A stretch of DNA of 10,315 bases, taken from positions 1-10,315 of the forward strand of contig QHUV01000143.1 in assembly GCA_003222065.1 (NCBI GenBank). The letters are read 5' to 3'. Origin of the DNA: Gemmatimonadota bacterium (GTDB lineage: Bacteria; Gemmatimonadota; Gemmatimonadetes; Gemmatimonadales; Gemmatimonadaceae). Below the pieces are notes generated by a model. That model was not told the DNA's origin, did not search any database, and saw only the letters and a list, made by a program, of their open reading frames with translations. Shown here piece after piece: positions 1-8,864 of the stretch (the first letter of the stretch is position 1; every line of letters begins with the position of its first letter). A program made the translations under genes and the position numbers.

Positions 1-1778
1 ACGTTTGACCTCAATCTCAGCACCGGTTTTTCGAAACTCGATAATCGGATTCCGCCGGAGAGCGATCTCATCATCGCGTTGTATTACGTCGGAATGCAGA
101 ACTACGGGTATAAGGGGTGCCCGGGAGGCGTGAGACCGTGTGGCCTGGATAAAGACCCGAACCAGACCGACGGCACGCCACTGCACGACGCCTTGCAATG
201 GGCTCCGGGCGACATCATGCAAGTGACGCAGAATTCTGACGTGCAGCGCTTTACGGGGAGCGCGAACGGCAATTGGCGGCCGTTGTCTTGGATGCAGAAC
301 GACGCGACGGTCGGCCTTGATCTTTCGGCGGTGAATTTCTTCCAGCTCTGCCGGCTCAACGAGTGTCCGCCACAAAGCGCGACCGCGCGGCTCGGACGCG
401 TGACGGACAATCAGACCAAGTTTCGCAACTTCTCAGCAAAGCTTTCGAGCACGGGCACGTGGAACGTTCGTCCGTGGATCAATCTGCGAACGAGCGCAGG
501 CACGGATTATACGAACGTCGAGGCCGACACGGCATTCACCAATGGAACGCGCCTACCACCAGGCGCGTCGACGATCGGCTCGGCCGCGGTGCAGAGCGCC
601 CAGGATCGGCAGCCCGTCGCGGTGAAGACGCTGGGTCTCTATGTCCAGGAGCAGGCCGGTTTCAACGACCGGCTATTCGTCACCGCAGCCGTGCGCACGG
701 ACCAGAACAGCGCCTTCGGTACAAACTTCCAGAGCGTGGTCTATCCCAAGGCAAGTCTGTCGTGGGTCGTCTCCGACGAATCCTATTTCCCGCGCTTTTC
801 CTGGCTCGACCAACTCCGACTGCGGACGGCGTACGGCGCCAGTGGCGTGCAACCCGGAGCGACGGCCGCGCTCGTACTATATAGCGCTGGAAGCGTGAAC
901 ATCCCGACGCGGTCGTCCACCGCAACCAGCGGCAGCGATGTGCCGGGCCTAACGGCAAGCCAACCGGGCACGAGGCTCAGGTCACCGCCCAGCTCTATCA
1001 ATCGCGTCGCTTCGGCTGGGACGTGCTCGTCACCGGTTCACATTTCAGCAACAAAGTCGTCGATCTCGGAACCGATCCGAGCACTGGCAAGCCGCGCATT
1101 CTCCAGCCGGCCGGTGGCAGCACGGGCGGGCAAGTACGCCAGATGGCGGGATATCCGATCAACTCGCAGTGGTATAGACCCTACACGTACCATGACGACA
1201 ACGGCGACGGGATTCTGCAGGTGAAGGAGGTGCATGTCGACTCGCTATTCCAGTTCTACGGATACCGCGTGCCGCGAGACATCGTGTCGCTACAAAACGG
1301 CTTCGACTTCTTTAGTGGATTAGTACACATCAACATGATGTTCGACTATAAGGGTGGGTCGAGCGTCCTCGACGGCGCGAACAACTTCCAATGCAACACC
1401 GGACCGTTCGCGTGCCGCGACACGCAGGATCCGACGGTTTCCCTCGATCGGCAGGCGGCGGCGATTGCCAAGACCTACGGCACGACGCTGAACGGTACGA
1501 ATTACAAGTCATCACTCGGCTACTTCCGGAACAATCAGTTCTGGAAGTTCCGCGAGCTTTCGGCCGTGTTGCAGTTGCCCAATGTCGTTAGGTCGCGCAT
1601 TCGTGCGCAGCAGGGATCGTCGATCGTCTTTGGCGCGCGCAACATTCACACATGGACGTCCTGGACGGGCGTAGATCCGGAAGCCAACTACGGCCTCACG
1701 CAGACCGAAGCGCAGAACGAATTCCAGACGACGGGACTACCGACGTACTTCACGATGCGACTCAACCTCAAGTATTGA
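1..1778 (+). pseudogene. SusC/RagA-like TonB-dependent outer-membrane receptor, C-terminal part, interrupted
   Basis: The reading frame is open from the first base, so the gene starts outside the window; the plug domain and first barrel strands (perhaps 400 residues) are missing. Frame 1 carries beta-barrel sequence typical of SusC proteins (for example LYVQEQAGFNDRLFVTAAVR, then a tract around LRLRTAYGASGVQPG near 820-855) to about position 969. The family then continues in frame 3 from about 963 (GHEAQVTAQLYQSRRFGWDV) to the stop at 1776-1778, ending in an aromatic residue (LNLKY) as outer-membrane barrels do. By my recollection of the family, about 60-70 residues normally between these two parts are absent and the frame changes, so this is more than a single-base slip. 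Frame 1 runs on to 1224 as non-homologous sequence. As read, the product would lack its last barrel strands and be non-functional. SusC proteins import substrates through the outer membrane using TonB energy, with SusD as lid. An assembly error is the main alternative to a true pseudogene. Confidence 0.85.
963..970 (+). other. Deletion junction in the SusC-like gene
   Basis: The eight bases accgggca can be read as the end of the upstream part (frame 1, ..Q-P-G-) or the start of the downstream part (frame 3, T-G-H..). Both readings are plausible family sequence, so the junction lies within or next to these bases. That is what a microhomology-mediated deletion, or an assembler collapsing two short repeats, would leave. 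The intact ancestor is not visible, so the repeat is inferred. Confidence 0.5.
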
Positions 1779-1793
1779 GCGAGGACGATACTC

Positions 1794-3230
1794 ATGCGCA
1801 ACGCAAAGAACCGCGCTCGTCGTGTGAACGCTGCCGCCGCGCTCGTCCTTGCGGCGGGTGTGATCACGATCGCGGCATGCGACCGAATCAAGAACGAGCT
1901 CCTGGAGCCTCAGAATCCGGGCCTCGTGGACCAGGGTGCAGTCGGTTCGCCGGCTGCCGCAGCGGCGCTAAAGGTCGGAGCCATTGGAAGGTTCAAGCGG
2001 CTGGCCTACGACAGCGCCCCCGCTGGATTCGCTGGCTCCTCGGTCTGGGAGGCGGGCGGATTGCTGACCGACGAGTTCTCGAATTCGGACTTCCAGAACT
2101 CGCAGAACGACGTCGATGCCCGGACGATGAGTCCCGACAATCAGGCCAGCAACTACACGCGCGTGACCCAGGCGCGTGGCTATATCACCGACGCGATCGC
2201 GGCCGAAAAACAATTCGAGCCGCAAAAGACGTCTGATATCGGAGAGTTGTACGCGGCGCTCGCGTTCATCGAGGTGAACCTCGCGGAAAGCTTCTGTAAC
2301 GGAATACCGCTAGGCAACAATAAGCAGGGCGTTGTCGACTACTCCAGTCCGGACTTCAAGCCACTGACCAACGCGGAAGTGTACGTGGTCGCGCTAGGAC
2401 ACGTCGACAATGCGCTGTCGACGCTCGGCAGTGCCACGGACGTCGCAACGACGTTCGTGCGGCAACTGGCTCTGATCACCAAAGCGCGTATTCTCGTGGA
2501 TCAAGGGAAGTTCACGGAAGCCGCTGCCCTGGTTCCATCGAGCACCATTCCGTCGAGTTATCAGTATCTCTGGACATCCTCGGCGTCGAACAACAACGAT
2601 GACCTGGGCATCTGGACGCTGAACAACTCCATCTCCCGAATGACTGTGGGCGACAGTTCGATGACGTATCAGGGGAAGACATTTAGAATCTTCAATGCCG
2701 TTCCATTCGCGTCCGCGAATGATCCTCGCGTCCCCATTCTCAAGGGCACCGACGCGCAGTTGTCGGCCGAGGATGGACTCACACCGTTGTTCATTCAGCA
2801 AGTCTGGAAGAACAGAGACGACGCAATTCCGGCTGCGTCGGGAATCGATGCTCGCTTGATCGAGGCCGAAGCATTGCTCAACAGCGGCGACTACGCGGGA
2901 ATGACCGTGATCCTCAATGCACTTCGCGCGGCTCCGCCGTCCATCGGTGCGTTTAAGCCGGCCGCGATGGCGCCGCTCGTGGCTCCGACGGTGAAGGACG
3001 ACGCGGTTACGCTGTTCTTCCGCGAAAAGGCCTTCTGGACGTTTGGCCGCGGTCAGCGTCTCGGTGATCTGCGTCGTCTCGTGCGGCAGTATGGACGTGC
3101 GCAGGATCAGGTCTTTCCGACCGGCCAGCATTACAAGGGCGGAAACTATGGCTCCGACGTGAACTTGCCGGTGCCGGACGCCGAGCGTGTCAACCCACAG
3201 TTCAAGGGGTGTCTCGATCGGAATGCGTAA
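1794..3230 (+). CDS. SusD/RagB-like outer-membrane lipoprotein
   Basis: This 478-residue protein is the surface lipoprotein partner of a SusC receptor, where it acts as a hinged lid binding substrate. The N-terminus is a lipoprotein signal: basic start (RNAKNRARR), hydrophobic stretch at 13-27, and lipobox IAAC with the lipidated cysteine at residue 29. The rest is soluble and mostly alpha-helical in character. A segment near 352-370 (DARLIEAEALLNSGDYAG) resembles the TPR-like helices of the family, and FFREKAFWTFGRGQRLGDLR at about 408-427 matches its conserved C-terminal block. It ends PQFKGCLDRNA, typical of high-GC SusD proteins. GAGG at 1781-1784 sits nine bases before the ATG and supports this start. 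The gene begins 15 bases after the receptor stop, so the two form an operon. Substrate is not evident; the neighbouring peptidase suggests peptides. The reading frame is intact although the partner is broken. Confidence 0.9.
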   Translation: MRNAKNRARRVNAAAALVLAAGVITIAACDRIKNELLEPQNPGLVDQGAVGSPAAAAALKVGAIGRFKRLAYDSAPAGFAGSSVWEAGGLLTDEFSNSDFQNSQNDVDARTMSPDNQASNYTRVTQARGYITDAIAAEKQFEPQKTSDIGELYAALAFIEVNLAESFCNGIPLGNNKQGVVDYSSPDFKPLTNAEVYVVALGHVDNALSTLGSATDVATTFVRQLALITKARILVDQGKFTEAAALVPSSTIPSSYQYLWTSSASNNNDDLGIWTLNNSISRMTVGDSSMTYQGKTFRIFNAVPFASANDPRVPILKGTDAQLSAEDGLTPLFIQQVWKNRDDAIPAASGIDARLIEAEALLNSGDYAGMTVILNALRAAPPSIGAFKPAAMAPLVAPTVKDDAVTLFFREKAFWTFGRGQRLGDLRRLVRQYGRAQDQVFPTGQHYKGGNYGSDVNLPVPDAERVNPQFKGCLDRNA

Positions 3231-3274
3231 CGCCTAACGTGAACCGCGGGCTCGGCGTGTTGTTCCGGGCCGGT

Positions 3275-3318
3275 GACGAGGGATCTGCTCTCCTGTCGAG
3301 TGGTCCCTCGTTTCGCTT
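3275..3318 (+). terminator. Probable rho-independent terminator after the susC-susD operon
   Basis: Bases 3275-3285 (gacgagggatc) pair with 3302-3312 over about 11 base pairs, two of them G-T wobbles, around a 16-base loop. The core acgaggga/tccctcgt is perfect. T-rich TTTCGCTT overlaps and follows the stem. It lies 45 bases after the SusD stop and 85 before the peptidase start, so the peptidase probably has its own promoter. The loop is long and the T-tract imperfect, hence moderate confidence. Confidence 0.55.
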
Positions 3319-3396
3319 GGGACGGTGCTTGCCGCTATGTTGAAGCCTGATGCAGGAGAGTCGTTCGCCGTATCGATTCGATTTTCGGGAGATCAC

Positions 3397-6261
3397 ATGT
3401 CCTCAATGACGCGCGCCGCCCTTGGCGCCTTGTTCGGAGCGGCTACGCTCGCCGCGCAACAGCCACAGAGTGTGGCGACCAACGCGTCATCACGATCTCG
3501 GCCAGCGCTCACCGAGGCCGACTTCGCACGCATCGAGACGCTTGGCGCGTCGGCGCTATCCCCGGACGGCAAGTGGGTCGCGTACGATTTTCGACGAGGC
3601 GCGTCGGGCCCTACGGAGCTGCGGTATCGGACCGTCGCCGGCGGCGCCGAGTCGACCGTACCGTTAGGCAACACGCCGCTGTTCAGCGCCAACGGACGGT
3701 GGCTGCTGTTCACGATTACACCGGACACGACCGCTGCCCGCGCTGCTTCACGTCGTGGCGGCGCGACCGGTGGGCGCGGTAGCGCGCCGCCGCCGGAGAC
3801 AACACGCAACAAAGTCGGTATCGTCGACTTGCGGAATGGCACTCGCACGGTACTGGAGGACGTCCAGTCGTTCGCGCTGAGCAAGGACGGCGCCCACGTC
3901 GCGCTCCGTCGTTATGTCCCCGCGGATCGGCGTGGCCGGGGTGCCGATCTCGTCGTCCGTGATCTGGAGCAAGGCACTGACGTCACCTTCGGCAACGTCT
4001 CCGACTTCGCGTGGAACGAGGATGGAACGCTCCTCGCCATGGCCATAGACGTCGAGGGTAAGACTGGCAATGCCCTCCAGCTGCTCAATGTCGCGACCGG
4101 CGCGCTTCGAGCACTCGATACGGGCGATCAGCTGTACACGAGCATCGCCTGGCGCAAGCACGGCGATGACCTGGCGGTGCTGCGCAGTCGCACTGATAGC
4201 AGCTTCGCCGATACGAGCGTCGCCGTCATAGCCTGGCGAGGACTTTCGTCTGCGCATCCAACGAAGACGGCTTACGATTTTGGCGGCGACAGTGCTTTCG
4301 CGCGCGGCATGCGCGTCGCGCCGTACCGCCCGCCACTGTGGGCCGAGGACGGGAATACGCTGTTCTTTGGCATCGCGCCACGCGAGCCGAAGGAGCAACG
4401 GCAGTGGGACGGCGCGCAGCCGGCGCGCGTCGAGATCTGGCACTGGAAGGATCTCCGCGAGTATCACCAGCAGGATCGCCAGGCGGCGCAGGACCGACAG
4501 AAGACCCAGCTCGTCGCCTGGCGGCCCGCGGACGGGCGACTCGTCAGGCTCGCCGATGATTCCTCGGATGTCGTGCAGCTCTCGGAGAACGAGCGCGTCG
4601 CCCTAACGACGGACGGGCGTCCGTATTTCAGCGAGGTGATCTCAGGCCGGCAGTACCATGACGTCTATCGCGTCGACCTCGCCACCGGTCAGCGCGAACG
4701 CATCGTCACGAAGACGGCATTCGGGGTCACGGCAAGTCCGGGTGGACGCTACGTCCTGTACGGCCAGGGCGGTCACTGGTGGACGTACGACCTAACGACC
4801 AAAGGGCGCGCGAACCTTACGGCCAAGATTCCCAGCGCCTTCGTGAACATGGAGGACGATCATCCGGTTCACGAGCGGCGGCCGTACGGCGTCGGTGGCT
4901 GGACGACAGGGGACCGCTCGGTGATTCTGTATGATCGCTATGATCTGTGGCAGGTGGCGCCCGACGGGTCGAACCCCGTTAGGCTCACGCGCGGCCGCGA
5001 GGACTCCACGGTCTATCGCATCGAGTGGCTGGACACCGAGTCACGCACGATCGATCCCGCGAAGCCATTGATGCTCGCCACGACCGGCGATTGGAACAAA
5101 AAGAGCGGCTACGCGCGGCTGACGATCGGTCAGCCGGCGCAACGCCTGCTCTGGGTCGACAAGAGCATCAGCCGCCTAACGCAAGCCAAGAATGCCGCCA
5201 ATGTTTATACGTACGTCGCGCAGAGCGCCAGCGAGTCCCCGAACCTCTTTGTGACATCGGGCCTACTCAGTAACGCGCAGGCGGTCTCGCACACGAATGC
5301 ATTCCTGGCCGACCATGCGTGGGGGAAGCAGGAGTTGATGTCGTACACGAATTCCCGCGGAGACAAGCTGCAAATGATGCTGACGTATCCGGCGGACTAT
5401 CAGCCGGGGAAGCAGTATCCGATGGTCGTCTACTACTACGAGAAGCTCTCGCAGGGATTCCATCAATGGGTCGCACCGACGGAGCGCTCGACGTATAACA
5501 CGAGTGTCTTCAGCCAGAACGGCTATTTCGTTCTACGTCCCGACATCGTCTTCCGCTTTCGCGATCCAGGTTACTCGGGGCTGGATTGTGTTACCGCGGC
5601 GGTGAAGGCGGCGCTTGCGACGGGGCTGATCGACCCGAAACGAGTCGGGAACATGGGGCACTCGTGGGGCGGATATCAGTCCGCGTTCTACGCCGTGCAC
5701 GGCCACGGTATGTTCGCAGCCACCATCGCCGGCGCGCCGCTGACGGACTTGATCAGCATGTACGGCTACACGTCGTTCAACAGCGGACTTCCGGAGACGG
5801 GCCACTACGAGACGGGCCAGGAGCGCATGCAGGTGCCGCTCTGGGAGGATCCACAAGCGTACATCCGTAACTCGACGGTGTTCGCCGTCGACTCGCTGCA
5901 GACCCCGTTGCTCCTCGAGGAAGGGGACGCCGACGGCAATGTCAACTACTGGCAAGGCATGGAGCTCTACAACTTCGGCCGACGCCTCGGAAAGGAAGTG
6001 GTCTTCCTGATCTACAACGATGAGAACCACGGCGTGGCGCGCCCGGAGAGCCAGATCGACTATCACCGGCGGCAGCTCGAGTGGTTTGCGCATTACCTCA
6101 AGGGCGAGGCGGCGGCGGATTGGATCGCGCACGGCGAGACGTACCTCGCGCGTCAGAAGATGCTAAAGGCATACAACGCCACAAACGAGGGCAACAGGTC
6201 ACCGGCGGTGCAGGCGGGTACGGCCGCCGATGCCGCGCCACGTGGTGCGCGGCGGCCCTAA
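3397..6261 (+). CDS. Exported S9-family (prolyl oligopeptidase-like) serine peptidase
   Basis: This is a 954-residue peptidase with an N-terminal signal sequence (MSSMTRAALGALFGAATLAA, likely cut before the QQ that follows). A long beta-propeller-like region follows, with repeats such as LSPDGKWVAYD near residue 55 and LWQVAPDGSNPVRLT near 517. The C-terminal alpha/beta-hydrolase domain starts around 665. The nucleophile elbow is GHSWGG with Ser756; the likely acid is Asp846 in GDADGNV and the base His878 in ENHG, the order and spacing of DPP-IV/acylaminoacyl-peptidase enzymes. Such proteins cleave short peptides in the periplasm or outside the cell; exact specificity (dipeptidyl versus acylaminoacyl) cannot be told. 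The frame is open upstream to a GTG at 3325, but only the ATG at 3397 puts the signal peptide at the N-terminus, with GGGAGA four bases upstream (3387-3392); the ATG at 3406 is an alternative. The gene follows a SusC/SusD pair, fitting a peptide-use locus, but is separated from it by a probable terminator. Confidence 0.93.
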   Translation: MSSMTRAALGALFGAATLAAQQPQSVATNASSRSRPALTEADFARIETLGASALSPDGKWVAYDFRRGASGPTELRYRTVAGGAESTVPLGNTPLFSANGRWLLFTITPDTTAARAASRRGGATGGRGSAPPPETTRNKVGIVDLRNGTRTVLEDVQSFALSKDGAHVALRRYVPADRRGRGADLVVRDLEQGTDVTFGNVSDFAWNEDGTLLAMAIDVEGKTGNALQLLNVATGALRALDTGDQLYTSIAWRKHGDDLAVLRSRTDSSFADTSVAVIAWRGLSSAHPTKTAYDFGGDSAFARGMRVAPYRPPLWAEDGNTLFFGIAPREPKEQRQWDGAQPARVEIWHWKDLREYHQQDRQAAQDRQKTQLVAWRPADGRLVRLADDSSDVVQLSENERVALTTDGRPYFSEVISGRQYHDVYRVDLATGQRERIVTKTAFGVTASPGGRYVLYGQGGHWWTYDLTTKGRANLTAKIPSAFVNMEDDHPVHERRPYGVGGWTTGDRSVILYDRYDLWQVAPDGSNPVRLTRGREDSTVYRIEWLDTESRTIDPAKPLMLATTGDWNKKSGYARLTIGQPAQRLLWVDKSISRLTQAKNAANVYTYVAQSASESPNLFVTSGLLSNAQAVSHTNAFLADHAWGKQELMSYTNSRGDKLQMMLTYPADYQPGKQYPMVVYYYEKLSQGFHQWVAPTERSTYNTSVFSQNGYFVLRPDIVFRFRDPGYSGLDCVTAAVKAALATGLIDPKRVGNMGHSWGGYQSAFYAVHGHGMFAATIAGAPLTDLISMYGYTSFNSGLPETGHYETGQERMQVPLWEDPQAYIRNSTVFAVDSLQTPLLLEEGDADGNVNYWQGMELYNFGRRLGKEVVFLIYNDENHGVARPESQIDYHRRQLEWFAHYLKGEAAADWIAHGETYLARQKMLKAYNATNEGNRSPAVQAGTAADAAPRGARRP

Positions 6262-6373
6262 GTGTGCCTGGGTATCCGACTGGGTGTGGCGACACCATTT
6301 CAGCGATAGTGGCTCCGGCCTCGACGCGAGCCTTATCATGAAGGCGCATTAGACCCTTCCTCGCGCACCACTG

Positions 6374-7345
6374 ATGGCCGATAGCTCAGAATTCAAGGCC
6401 CGCTCGCGCGCCCTCGCGCCGGACTTCGTGCTCGATCGCGAGATCGGTCGTGGTGGTATGGGGATCGTGTACCTCGGGACGGATGTCAAGCTCGACCGAC
6501 CAGTCGCGATCAAAGTCCTGCCCGAGCTGCTCTCCGACGTGCCCGAAGTGCGAGAGCGATTCCTTCGCGAGGCGCGAACAGCGGCGAAGCTCGCGCACCC
6601 GAACATCGTGCCGATTCATCGCGCCGACGAGATGGACGGCGTGGTGTTCATCGTTATGACGTACATCGATGGAACATCCCTGGCGGAACGGCTCGCCGCG
6701 CAGACCGTCATCGCTCCGTCGGCCATCGTGCCCATCCTCCGCGACGTGGCCCTCGCGCTGGACTACGCCCACGGCCACGGCGTCGTTCACCGCGACATCA
6801 AGCCGGAGAACATCCTCGTCGAAGCATCGAGCGGTCGCGCGTGGGTCACGGACTTCGGCATTGCGCGCCTCGCCGAAGCAAAGCCGCTCACGGCGACCGG
6901 CCAGGTACTCGGCACCGTGCATTACATGAGTCCCGAGCAGATCACCGGTGAGCCCGTCGACGGCCGCAGCGACCTGTACTCGTTAGGTGTCGTCGGCTTT
7001 CGCGCGCTCACTGGACGACTTCCCTTCGACAATGAAGTGGCGTCGGCGGTGCTTGTCGCACACGTCGTGAAGTCACCGCCGAAGGTTCGCGACGTCGCGC
7101 CGCACGTGCCGGCGGCGCTTGCCGACGTGATCGACACCTGTCTGGCCAAGGACCCGGCCGCGCGCTTCGCCTCAGGCAAAATACTGGCGCGACAACTCGA
7201 CGACGCGCTCGGCGCGGCGGAGGGAGAGGGCAGTCGATCTGCCGATGCCCCGGCCATCATCTCCGGCGGAGCTGGGCTTCACGCCGGCGTTGTCACAGCC
7301 CAGCGCTGCCAACCTGCCTCACCCGGCGCGTCGGCCGTCGCCTAA
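6374..7345 (+). CDS. Hanks-type Ser/Thr protein kinase (catalytic part; C-terminus probably frameshifted)
   Basis: The protein phosphorylates Ser/Thr residues of unknown targets. All kinase landmarks are present: glycine loop GRGGMGIVY (25-33), Lys47 in VAIKVL, Glu66 in REAR, catalytic loop HRDIKPEN (139-146), DFGIAR (160-165), SPEQ (186-189) and DLYSLGVVGF. The domain ends near residue 285 (DPAARFASGKILARQLDDAL). After that the frame gives an uncharacteristic tail and stops at 7343-7345, while the frame one base over (7245-7883) carries the membrane module that, as I recall, follows the kinase in related proteins. Removing one base in about 7206-7345, for instance in the CCCC run at 7248-7251, would join them into roughly 502 residues. 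The alternative is a real 323-residue kinase overlapping a second gene. The start ATG has no clear Shine-Dalgarno sequence. The 112-base upstream gap holds only a weak hairpin (6283-6296) and a TATCAT at 6334-6339 with no good -35 partner. Confidence 0.92.
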   Translation: MADSSEFKARSRALAPDFVLDREIGRGGMGIVYLGTDVKLDRPVAIKVLPELLSDVPEVRERFLREARTAAKLAHPNIVPIHRADEMDGVVFIVMTYIDGTSLAERLAAQTVIAPSAIVPILRDVALALDYAHGHGVVHRDIKPENILVEASSGRAWVTDFGIARLAEAKPLTATGQVLGTVHYMSPEQITGEPVDGRSDLYSLGVVGFRALTGRLPFDNEVASAVLVAHVVKSPPKVRDVAPHVPAALADVIDTCLAKDPAARFASGKILARQLDDALGAAEGEGSRSADAPAIISGGAGLHAGVVTAQRCQPASPGASAVA

Positions 7346-7883
7346 CGCGTCGCCAGTACACGCTGTCAGAGATGAGACGCCTCCCGCGTCGCCCTTGGCG
7401 GGCGCACCGATGGCAGTCATGTACGAGGTTGAGGTGGCCGGCGAGGTGCCCGATTCGGAGATGTTCGTGCTCGTCGACACCATTCGGCGTCGCCTTGGAG
7501 AGGCTGGACAGTTCGGCAGCATTGGACTCAGCGTGTCGTGGAGCTCCAACTCGAAGAACCGCCGTCTGCAGATCTCCATCTTGTCGCGTCACGGGAAGAC
7601 GACGATTCGTGCGGACGAGCGAATGCCTCCCCTTGCTGGTGCAGTGTTCGGCGGCGTGATGGGCGGCGTGGGAGGGGGATCGGGCGGACTCGCTTTCGCC
7701 ATCGGCATGGCGGGGTTCCATTCCGTGGCAGCGTCCCTCGGATTGTGGAGCGCGATAATCGGCGGCAGCTACCTGCTGGCGCGAACGATTTACGGCGCGC
7801 AGGTGCGTCGGCGCGGGAAGGAGCTGCGCGATCTCGTGGAGGAGTTGGGCGCGCAAGCGCGCGATACGATCGAGGGACGGTGA
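7245..7883 (+). CDS. Glycine-rich membrane module, probably the C-terminal part of the kinase
   Basis: The open frame encodes a Pro/Ala-rich linker (about the first 55 residues), a compact segment beginning MYEVEVAGEVPDSEMFVLVD, a basic stretch ending RADERMPPLAG, and two hydrophobic glycine-rich helices (AVFGGVMGGVGGGSGGLAFA and a later one ending IIGGSYLLARTIYG). A charged helix (RRRGKELRDLVEELGAQ) closes it. I recall similar tails on Ser/Thr kinases of Gemmatimonadota, where they would anchor the kinase in the inner membrane; this is recollection, not a search. The frame is open upstream of 7245 into the kinase gene, and the ATG at 7245 has no ribosome site, which favours a single protein split by a frame change. 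ATGs at 7410 and 7419 could be starts if it is a separate gene. In the overlap both frames show similar third-position GC, so codon use does not locate the shift. Confidence 0.7.
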   Translation: MPRPSSPAELGFTPALSQPSAANLPHPARRPSPNASPVHAVRDETPPASPLAGAPMAVMYEVEVAGEVPDSEMFVLVDTIRRRLGEAGQFGSIGLSVSWSSNSKNRRLQISILSRHGKTTIRADERMPPLAGAVFGGVMGGVGGGSGGLAFAIGMAGFHSVAASLGLWSAIIGGSYLLARTIYGAQVRRRGKELRDLVEELGAQARDTIEGR

Positions 7884-7900
7884 GCAGCGCACAACAGAAT

Positions 7901-7930
7901 GGCCCGACCGCGAGCACTCGCGGTCGGGCC
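7901..7930. terminator. Bidirectional hairpin terminator between convergent genes
   Basis: Bases 7901-7913 (ggcccgaccgcga) pair perfectly with 7918-7930 around the tetraloop gcac, a 13-base-pair GC-rich stem. It sits 17 bases after the kinase-module stop and 23 bases after the end of the minus-strand gene at 7954. There is no T-run on the plus side; read on the minus strand the stem is followed by attctgttg, which is only mildly T-rich. Position and stem strength suggest it ends transcription from both sides, or blocks read-through in a rho-dependent or intrinsic U-less manner. Confidence 0.75.
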
Positions 7931-7953
7931 CTCGACGTACCGTGTCGAAGTCG

Positions 7954-8451
7954 TTAGGCGACGCGGACAGTCGGCGTGCGTCGCGTACCGATCGGCCGAA
8001 GCGGAAGTGCGGCGATGGGCAGGTCGGCATTGGCAAACGCGACGCGGCGAGCGGCGCGGCGACGCAGGCGGAACAACCGGCGTACCGATTCGCTCATCCC
8101 GAGCGCGGCGATACCATGTCGAACCGTCTCCTCGGAGTAACTGAGTCGCGCCGCGACCTGCTTCAACGTGAGCGTTCCCGCGAGCCGTACTTCGCGCAGA
8201 ATCGCCAACACGTCGATGTTGCGTGTCCCGCGATGTCGGGCGAGGCCTGCTTCCATTACGCAGTGGCGGACCCACGTGCGGTTGCTGCCGAGCACGAACG
8301 CCACTTCGTCGAGCGTGGCACCGCCCAAGTAGAGCGCGAGGACCCAAGCCTCTTGCTGCTCGCGATTCAGGCGCGACGGCCGCGGAGCACGGGCTCTCGC
8401 GGAGGGAGCGTCAGCGCTGGTGACTAGGCGTGCCGTCGTGAGGGTGCGCAT
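7954..8451 (-). CDS. Putative DNA-binding protein with two helix-turn-helix segments
   Basis: The minus strand encodes 165 residues, very Arg-rich and without Lys-rich stretches. Residues 34-70 (core LGGATLDEVAFVLGSNRTWV) look like a helix-turn-helix, and residues 82-118 (core GTLTLKQVAARLSYSEETVR) like a second, a repeat arrangement seen in recombinase-type and sigma-region-4-type DNA-binding folds. The N-terminal 27 residues and the C-terminal 40 are basic and low in order, and could contact nucleic acid. I do not recognise a named family. It is transcribed against its neighbours, ends in a shared terminator, and could regulate either flanking unit. The ATG (complement of 8449-8451) has a poor ribosome site (ggtttccgg), so the start is uncertain. 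A plus-strand frame over the same DNA (7942-8427) is composition-driven and lacks recognisable motifs. The stop codon TAA lies inside a CCTAACG word. Confidence 0.68.
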   Translation of the reverse strand: MRTLTTARLVTSADAPSARARAPRPSRLNREQQEAWVLALYLGGATLDEVAFVLGSNRTWVRHCVMEAGLARHRGTRNIDVLAILREVRLAGTLTLKQVAARLSYSEETVRHGIAALGMSESVRRLFRLRRRAARRVAFANADLPIAALPLRPIGTRRTPTVRVA

Positions 8452-8864
8452 CCGGAAACCGGGTTAGAGGGAGCGTGAGGCGTCGCGGCGGCGCGACGAT
8501 GACTTCTGAAAGGGAGGCCCCTGCGCAAAGGAGACGCCGTGACCGCCAGCGCGGTAACTGTGTCCCTTGCGCCGCTACACGGGCGTCGAACCGGACGCAC
8601 GTGCCGGGTAGGGCAGGCTGTCCGAGTGCGCATCGCGGCCGCGACACGACGCGCTTGCCTAACGAGGAATCCATCGCGGGCAGCGACGTTGGCGCGCCCA
8701 GCAGTGGGCCTCGCCGGACCGAATGAAGCAAGGCCGGGCCGGCCGGGCCATCGTTTTCGCTTGAGCGGTCTCGCCGGCGCGACTAGCTTCTGGCTTCACA
8801 CGCGTCATCCCGCCCGCCGGCGGCCTGCCGCTCGCAATGCGCTTCGATTCGCCCCCCTCCACGC
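8452..8864. other. 413-base gap without a convincing gene
   Basis: This divergent intergenic region should hold promoters for the minus-strand HTH gene and the plus-strand GNAT gene. Visible elements are a strong Shine-Dalgarno-like AAAGGAG (8527-8533) five bases before a GTG at 8539, whose frame is Arg-rich, featureless and runs into the GNAT gene; a direct repeat GGCCGGGCC twice in tandem at about 8733-8750 followed by TCGTTTTCGCTT; and one CCTAACG word at 8658-8664. A 75-residue plus-strand frame from 8499 to 8726 contains a CxxC but is otherwise low-complexity and unsupported. I see no tRNA, known riboswitch or mobile element here. Confidence 0.6.
8761..8789 (+). promoter_or_regulatory. 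Weak sigma-70-like promoter candidate for the GNAT gene
   Basis: TTGAGC at 8761-8766 and TAGCTT at 8784-8789 are separated by 17 bases. The -35 matches consensus at 4 of 6 positions and the -10 at 3 of 6, so this is only the best candidate by eye in the gap. It would give a leader of about 70 bases. Confidence 0.2.

Follow-up and report, generated by a model that had tools for sequence, protein, structure and literature searches.

The heptamer CCTAACG occurs twelve times in a 10,315-nucleotide stretch of DNA from a Gemmatimonadota bacterium (assembly GCA_003222065.1, contig QHUV01000143.1), referred to here as the window, and its excess is a property of the whole genome and not of this window. 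The word is repeated thousands of times per genome in some soil bacteria, where it appears to be kept. By analogy with known uptake sequences, it is perhaps a tag for recognizing DNA of the bacterium's own kind for uptake.

The source genome (G000; 3.73 Mb in 736 contigs, 82% complete) carries 2,584 copies of CCTAACG (1,221 and 1,363 on the two strands), which corresponds to 0.69 per kb, compared to 460 copies of the reversed string. An initial annotation made from the window had named a genome-wide count near expectation as the mark of a chance cluster. This was checked, and such a count was not observed. In a 133-kb sample of the same genome, consisting of 20 contigs plus the window, CCTAACG is the top 7-mer by z score, with 114 copies compared to 5.6 or 13.7 expected from second- or third-order Markov models, respectively. 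The preceding base in this sample is G in 81% of cases and A in 14%, and the following base is A in 50%.

The same word is found in a cultured member of the phylum, Gemmatirosa kalamazoonensis, which we recognized as genome G080 in our collection from a 100% match of 6 kb of its 1,106,233-base replicon to NZ_CP007129.1. In a chromosome sample of 36 stretches of 20 kb (720 kb), the top 7-mer is GCCTAAC, which is present 473 times (0.66 per kb) with 13.5 expected, while GCCTAACG is present 413 times with 7.5 expected. A G precedes 99% of the CCTAACG copies and a G follows GCCTAAC in 87% of cases. The word is therefore better written as GCCTAAC(G), which is a strict core. Its flanks differ mildly between lineages, since A precedes CCTAACG in 4-14% and follows it in 41-50% of cases in genus g1, compared to 0% and 19% in G. 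kalamazoonensis.

Every G. kalamazoonensis replicon sampled carries the word, including the chromosome, both megaplasmids and a 21-kb element. The two megaplasmids have 91 copies of GCCTAAC in 120 kb (six 20-kb stretches), which is at least the chromosomal density. On the chromosome the spread is near random, with a mean of 13.1 and a variance of 15.7 among the 36 stretches. Even spacing was considered as an argument and dropped, given that gaps of 60-300 bp number 27 with 61 expected in G. kalamazoonensis and show no deficit in the source genome. Word pairs separated by 10-19 bp are in excess in the G. kalamazoonensis sample (14 compared to 2.8 expected), with 12 of the 14 on the same strand, and these close pairs lie partly within short tandem repeats (examples are L077:15279, L082:3156, L105:10869 and L052:18236). 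The one-mismatch variant GCCCAAC is also raised, at 154 copies with 65 expected, which perhaps reflects words decaying through T-to-C changes, or else a less strongly recognized form.

In the 21-kb element (L051, G080:C1), open reading frames (ORFs) and words recur at a period of 14,997 bases, which indicates a unit of approximately 15 kb containing about 14 words, at about host density or above. Among the nine of the element's 32 ORFs that were scanned are those for an integrase, a primase-like protein and an excisionase-like helix-turn-helix (HTH) protein, which gives the element a phage-satellite-like character. The G. kalamazoonensis genome paper describes it as a high-copy element that is perhaps a phage (PMC3974934).

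Within the window, all twelve exact copies listed by the initial annotation, seven on the plus strand and five on the minus strand, were located as reported, including the cluster of four in 4602-5181. Dinucleotide shuffling yields a mean of 0.72 copies, and none of 200 shuffled sequences reach twelve. Markov models predict 0.57 (second-order) or 1.09 (third-order), the latter figure being inflated by CCTAACG itself. These values agree with the earlier estimate of about one expected copy, and the excess of approximately 11- to 21-fold bears out the roughly tenfold figure given then. Compared to the genome-wide rate, the window is only mildly dense (12 copies with 7.1 expected, P=0.06) and does not stand out within its genome. 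The copies are located as follows.

948..954, plus strand: in the TonB-dependent receptor ORF at 1-1224.
1586..1592, minus strand: in the ORF at 1023-1778, a probable continuation of the receptor as judged by eye, with no Pfam match.
3233..3239, plus strand: intergenic, 2 bases past a 478-amino acid (aa) ORF.
3662..3668, minus strand: in the S9 peptidase ORF.
4602..4608, plus strand: in the S9 peptidase ORF.
4791..4797, plus strand: in the S9 peptidase ORF.
4977..4983, minus strand: in the S9 peptidase ORF; genome G242 has this copy too.
5175..5181, plus strand: in the S9 peptidase ORF.
6981..6987, minus strand: in the protein kinase ORF; G242 has this copy too.
7341..7347, plus strand: the kinase ORF has the TAA of the word as its stop codon, and the word also overlaps a 212-aa ORF; also present in G242.
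7952..7958, minus strand: the TAA of the word is the stop codon of a 165-aa HTH ORF.
8658..8664, plus strand: intergenic.

Predicted ORFs overlap ten of the twelve copies, and those at 3233 and 8658 are intergenic. The initial annotation had placed copies in at least five genes as well as in intergenic DNA; the intergenic copies are real, but only four clear genes are involved. The TonB-dependent receptor at 1-1778 apparently occupies two frames (1-1224 and 1023-1778, judged by eye), with a Pfam match in the first ORF only, and the apparent split would reflect a frameshift or an assembly error near 950-1023.

Across the phylum, 24 of 395 Gemmatimonadota genomes have at least 100 copies per Mb and are called bearers here, whereas the other 371 are at approximately 74 per Mb or fewer (densities were computed from rounded genome sizes). 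Seventeen bearers are among the 140 genomes of the source organism's own family, f1 (genera g1, g10, g13, g15, g16, g18, g20, g24 and g28), and seven belong to a second family, f2 (genera g41, g52 and g56). In these 12 genera every sampled member is at or above 100 per Mb except G229 (g24, 14 copies) and G037 (g41, 232 copies, approximately 59 per Mb). Five named loci from non-enriched Gemmatimonadota that carry the nearest orthologues (L171, L172, L174, L175 and L177; 90 kb) contain two copies in total. In a tree built from the ComEC of 30 genomes (17 word-bearing and 13 word-free), at least seven changes of the trait are required, three of them forced by well-supported branches, and 20 of 500 label shuffles need as few changes. 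The trait is stable within genera and changes between genera. We also screened 27 loci (11-23 kb each) of non-enriched genomes for a different over-represented word and found none comparable to GCCTAAC in its strongest bearers, although 20 kb could miss a weak word: at this length the bearer G109 reaches only z 6-8, and unrelated words attain z 10-12 at some non-enriched loci. Among the matches listed in our literature search (titles and abstract openings), there is no earlier report of the word as a genome signal.

The exceptional G229 has either lost the trait or been assigned to the wrong genus. It has no DprA match, a ComEC fragment at a contig edge, a strong AddAB-type pair, and PilT. The G+C content of the five contigs sampled from it ranges over 67-73%, compared to 67% in two stretches of G200. 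Loss of competence would fit with loss of the word, which is a weak hint from one metagenome-assembled genome (MAG) that is 88% complete.

Comparison between species bears on whether the words are maintained. We aligned approximately 20 kb for each pair that includes the source genome, and 41 kb for G242 versus G361, the latter being a Hopland soil 'Gemmatimonas sp.' MAG (JAJKIR010000132.1). When contig C12 and the window were compared to G242 (21 kb aligned, 77% identity), the two genomes had 20 and 18 words, respectively, with 12 in common. This retention of 60% is well above that of anagram 7-mers (21%, P=0.0002), TA-containing 7-mers (15%) and all 7-mers (19%). The other two pairs lean the same way but less strongly. 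For G242 versus G361 (totals of 33 and 29), 12 of 33 words are retained compared to 20% for anagrams (P=0.02). For the source genome versus G361 (totals of 19 and 15), the corresponding values are 7 of 19 and 22% (P=0.11). In these two pairs, many other common 7-mers are retained equally or better (36 of 183 for the source genome versus G361 and 98 of 856 for G242 versus G361), and these are mostly 7-mers that make common codons. Between the closer relatives G363 and G200 (95% identity), five of five words are kept, and the orthologous region of the word-free G027 has none. Because retention exceeds that of anagrams and the totals within each pair are similar, the words seem to be maintained, with some gained and some lost.

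We also examined the placement of words relative to genes, which were called with a simple codon-usage ORF caller. Word density is 0.86 per kb in coding and 0.84 per kb in intergenic DNA of the source genome sample, and 0.61 and 0.92 per kb, respectively, in G. kalamazoonensis. Within genes the reverse complement is the commoner orientation, by 57 to 35 in the source genome (P=0.03) and by 211 to 124 in G. kalamazoonensis (P=2e-6). The word is read in four frames, including one that makes the rare TTA codon. In all, 212 of 242 TTA codons in G. kalamazoonensis (840 kb of chromosome and megaplasmids) and 36 of 86 in the source sample lie within a word. Stop codons are supplied as well: 25 of 39 TAA and 20 of 121 TAG stops in the source sample lie inside a word, compared to none of 182 stops at 13 loci of word-free f1 genomes.

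On balance, we lean slightly towards GCCTAAC(G) being a lineage-specific self-DNA word that would work like the DNA uptake sequences (DUS) of Neisseriaceae or the uptake signal sequences (USS) of Pasteurellaceae. In such a system, GCCTAAC(G) would be bound preferentially by a DNA receptor on the cell surface, part of the type IV pilus or competence machinery, word-bearing fragments from relatives would be taken up and recombined more often, and this biased uptake would restore words and convert near-words to words. An uptake receptor as the reader and upkeep of the words through biased uptake are both suggested by resemblance to the known systems, and we rate them as marginally probable. The chances appear about even that the core shared by the two families represents Gemmatimonadota's own self-DNA word system, with mild flank differences between genera and a putative receptor. 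The system may have originated early in the order and then been lost many times.

The resemblance is to several features of established uptake sequences. One study describes almost 1,500 DUS copies in Neisseria with no general orientation bias and an apparently random spread, and uptake sequences that are somewhat fewer in coding DNA, with the reverse complement commoner within genes (PMC2346458). Another describes DUS dialects around a core (PMC3630211). These traits are matched here, with the coding deficit found in G. kalamazoonensis and not in the source sample. Like DUS, as portrayed there, the word is short, asymmetric and present in high copy, with variants around a core. With USS it shares a similar copy number, a near-random spread, the excess of the reverse complement within genes and, in G. 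kalamazoonensis, a lower density in coding DNA. Unlike DUS, the Gemmatimonadota word has an unrelated sequence, a shorter core, a distant phylum as its host and few inverted pairs. It is likewise unrelated to USS, whose inverted pairs are reported to form terminators (PMC5217627), whereas such pairs are rare in the G. kalamazoonensis sample.

Several observations weigh against a role in uptake. For gene searches, we compared an enriched set of 25 genomes (the 24 bearers plus G186, at approximately 67 per Mb) with 25 chosen non-enriched genomes. ComEC is over the cut-off in 21 of 25 enriched and 19 of 25 other genomes (with any match in 21 and 25, respectively), DprA is matched in 21 of 25 and 23 of 25, and PilT in 25 of 25 of both. 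The initial annotation had suggested checking whether competence genes covary with the word; these genes are as common without the word and do not explain it. A specificity factor must therefore discriminate the bearers, because the uptake machinery is present but does not. No receptor was found; GspH-type pilins are present in both groups, and ComP (PF16732) was not searched. Inverted adjacent word pairs within 40 bp, a frequent though not strictly defining trait of DUS and USS, number only five among the 473 words of the G. kalamazoonensis sample, general even spacing of words is not seen, and retention between the source genome and G361 is not significantly above that of anagrams, which is the case for one of the three pairs. 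Finally, there is no report of transformation in this phylum among the matches listed. In the comEC neighbourhood of G. kalamazoonensis and G200 no further competence gene was recognized, with ORF starts judged by eye and no family search.

These points give some room to a reader of another kind, such as a nucleoid, segregation or self-recognition factor that would bind the word throughout the genome and be unconnected with DNA uptake. We consider this possible but doubtful. The failure of uptake machinery to separate bearers from other genomes speaks for this explanation, as do words on all sampled replicons, including the 21-kb element, and maintenance of the words is apparent without reference to uptake. 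However, sites of the matS or Noc type occupy domains, whereas the words studied here are spread with no obvious domain, and their orientation and gene bias match those of uptake sequences. In a bolder form of this idea, the reader may be a new genome-wide self-recognition factor that is neither an uptake receptor, a Chi or KOPS (FtsK orienting polar sequence) reader, nor a methylase.

A modification or restriction target, marked by a methyltransferase or defence system, is unlikely. An asymmetric 7-mer with an A near its end does resemble the targets of type IIL or BREX-type systems. The cyanobacterial word HIP1, highly iterated and patchy between lineages in the same manner as GCCTAAC, is reported to be linked to methyltransferases (PMC4390886). 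However, HIP1 is palindromic, and GCCTAAC is asymmetric. Moreover, the published G. kalamazoonensis methylome comprises three N6-methyladenine motifs, RGATCY, ATGCAC and CCAGN7TCA, each more than 99% methylated, and none is like the word (PMC3974934). This argues against adenine methylation of the word, methylation sites having been among the options listed initially. An MmeI-type methyltransferase was tried as a discriminator and rejected, since weak matches, mostly to frames of approximately 1,000-1,100 aa, occur in both groups; matches below 1e-100 are found only in G021, G026 and G080. The methylome method employed detects 5-methylcytosine poorly, so that cytosine methylation of the word is conceivable.

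A Chi-like hotspot read by a RecBCD- or AddAB-type enzyme, or a KOPS-like polar signal, is quite unlikely. Chi is a short asymmetric word enriched genome-wide, and the length and copy number of the Gemmatimonadota word are of the right order. Orientation relative to replication, a check suggested at the outset, revealed weak polarity at most: the forward to reverse counts in the two halves of the G. kalamazoonensis chromosome sample are 120:151 and 105:97 (p=0.11), and among 18 rotations the strongest contrast is 43% compared to 54% forward (p=0.016, uncorrected). The initial annotation had also suggested checking for covariation with RecBCD-like genes. Matches to RecC (PF04257) come from 42 of the 395 genomes, most of them in genus g4, and G040 and G090 are the only bearers with one. 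A strong pair of PF12705 matches, the AddAB/RecB nuclease domain, occurs among bearers only in G155, with weak matches in G080, G363, G040, G090, G102 and G140. Neither RecC nor a strong PF12705 pair is therefore visible in 21 of the 24 bearers, including the complete G. kalamazoonensis genome, although absence from a MAG is weaker evidence. Several word-free genomes likewise lack a visible RecC or AddAB-type pair. More broadly, RecBCD and AddAB are patchy in the phylum (395 and 50 genomes searched, respectively), and many genomes show neither. With Chi readers in so few bearers (three of 24) and the word missing from the methylome, both Chi and adenine methylation are unlikely.

It is highly improbable that there is no signal at all and that the abundance of the word stems from codon usage, mutation bias or a chance cluster. 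The mild density of the window relative to its genome and the elevated near-word GCCCAAC are in keeping with such an origin, but the shuffled windows and the reversed-string control refute a chance cluster, and the excess is genome-wide in both the source genome and G. kalamazoonensis. Furthermore, words are as dense between genes as in coding DNA, or denser, four frames are used, including that of the rare TTA codon, the word even supplies stop codons, and retention surpasses that of anagrams in two of three pairs.

The notion that the word represents integron attC cores scattered through the genome can practically be dismissed: GCCTAAC/GTTAGGC is identical to a typical attC R-box core, and same-strand words recur every 0.6-1 kb in an array of G138, but most copies are single and inside genes with no general pairing, and an integron integrase is over the cut-off in 14 of 25 enriched-set compared to 13 of 28 other genomes. 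The G138 array (L259, G138:C5:12001-17000), in which six same-strand copies of GCCTAACG are each followed by RATSGCGY, has the appearance of an integron cassette array, and its genome encodes an integron integrase. Words are spaced similarly at G114:C2 and G256:C14 (from a list of word positions). The integron integrase of the source genome (G000:C102:2096-3035) is matched as adjacent fragments of 236 and 136 aa that are not in the same frame, and is either broken or misassembled.

The initial annotation was right in assigning the word to the class of genome-wide word signals, among which it made no choice; of the roles it listed, Chi or KOPS, methylation and HIP1 are disfavoured, and an uptake-like role is left by resemblance. 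To our knowledge, Neisseriaceae and Pasteurellaceae are the only families with established genome-wide uptake words. If GCCTAAC(G) is indeed such a word, it would represent an independent origin in a distant soil phylum, spanning two families, with word-free sister genera and a cultured bearer. Sister genera with and without the word would then provide a natural experiment on the rise and decay of barriers to DNA exchange, and the question of whether such words are kept by receptor bias alone or by selection for exchange among relatives would become directly testable. An uptake role would further suggest that this phylum, abundant in soil and seldom brought into culture, undergoes natural transformation.

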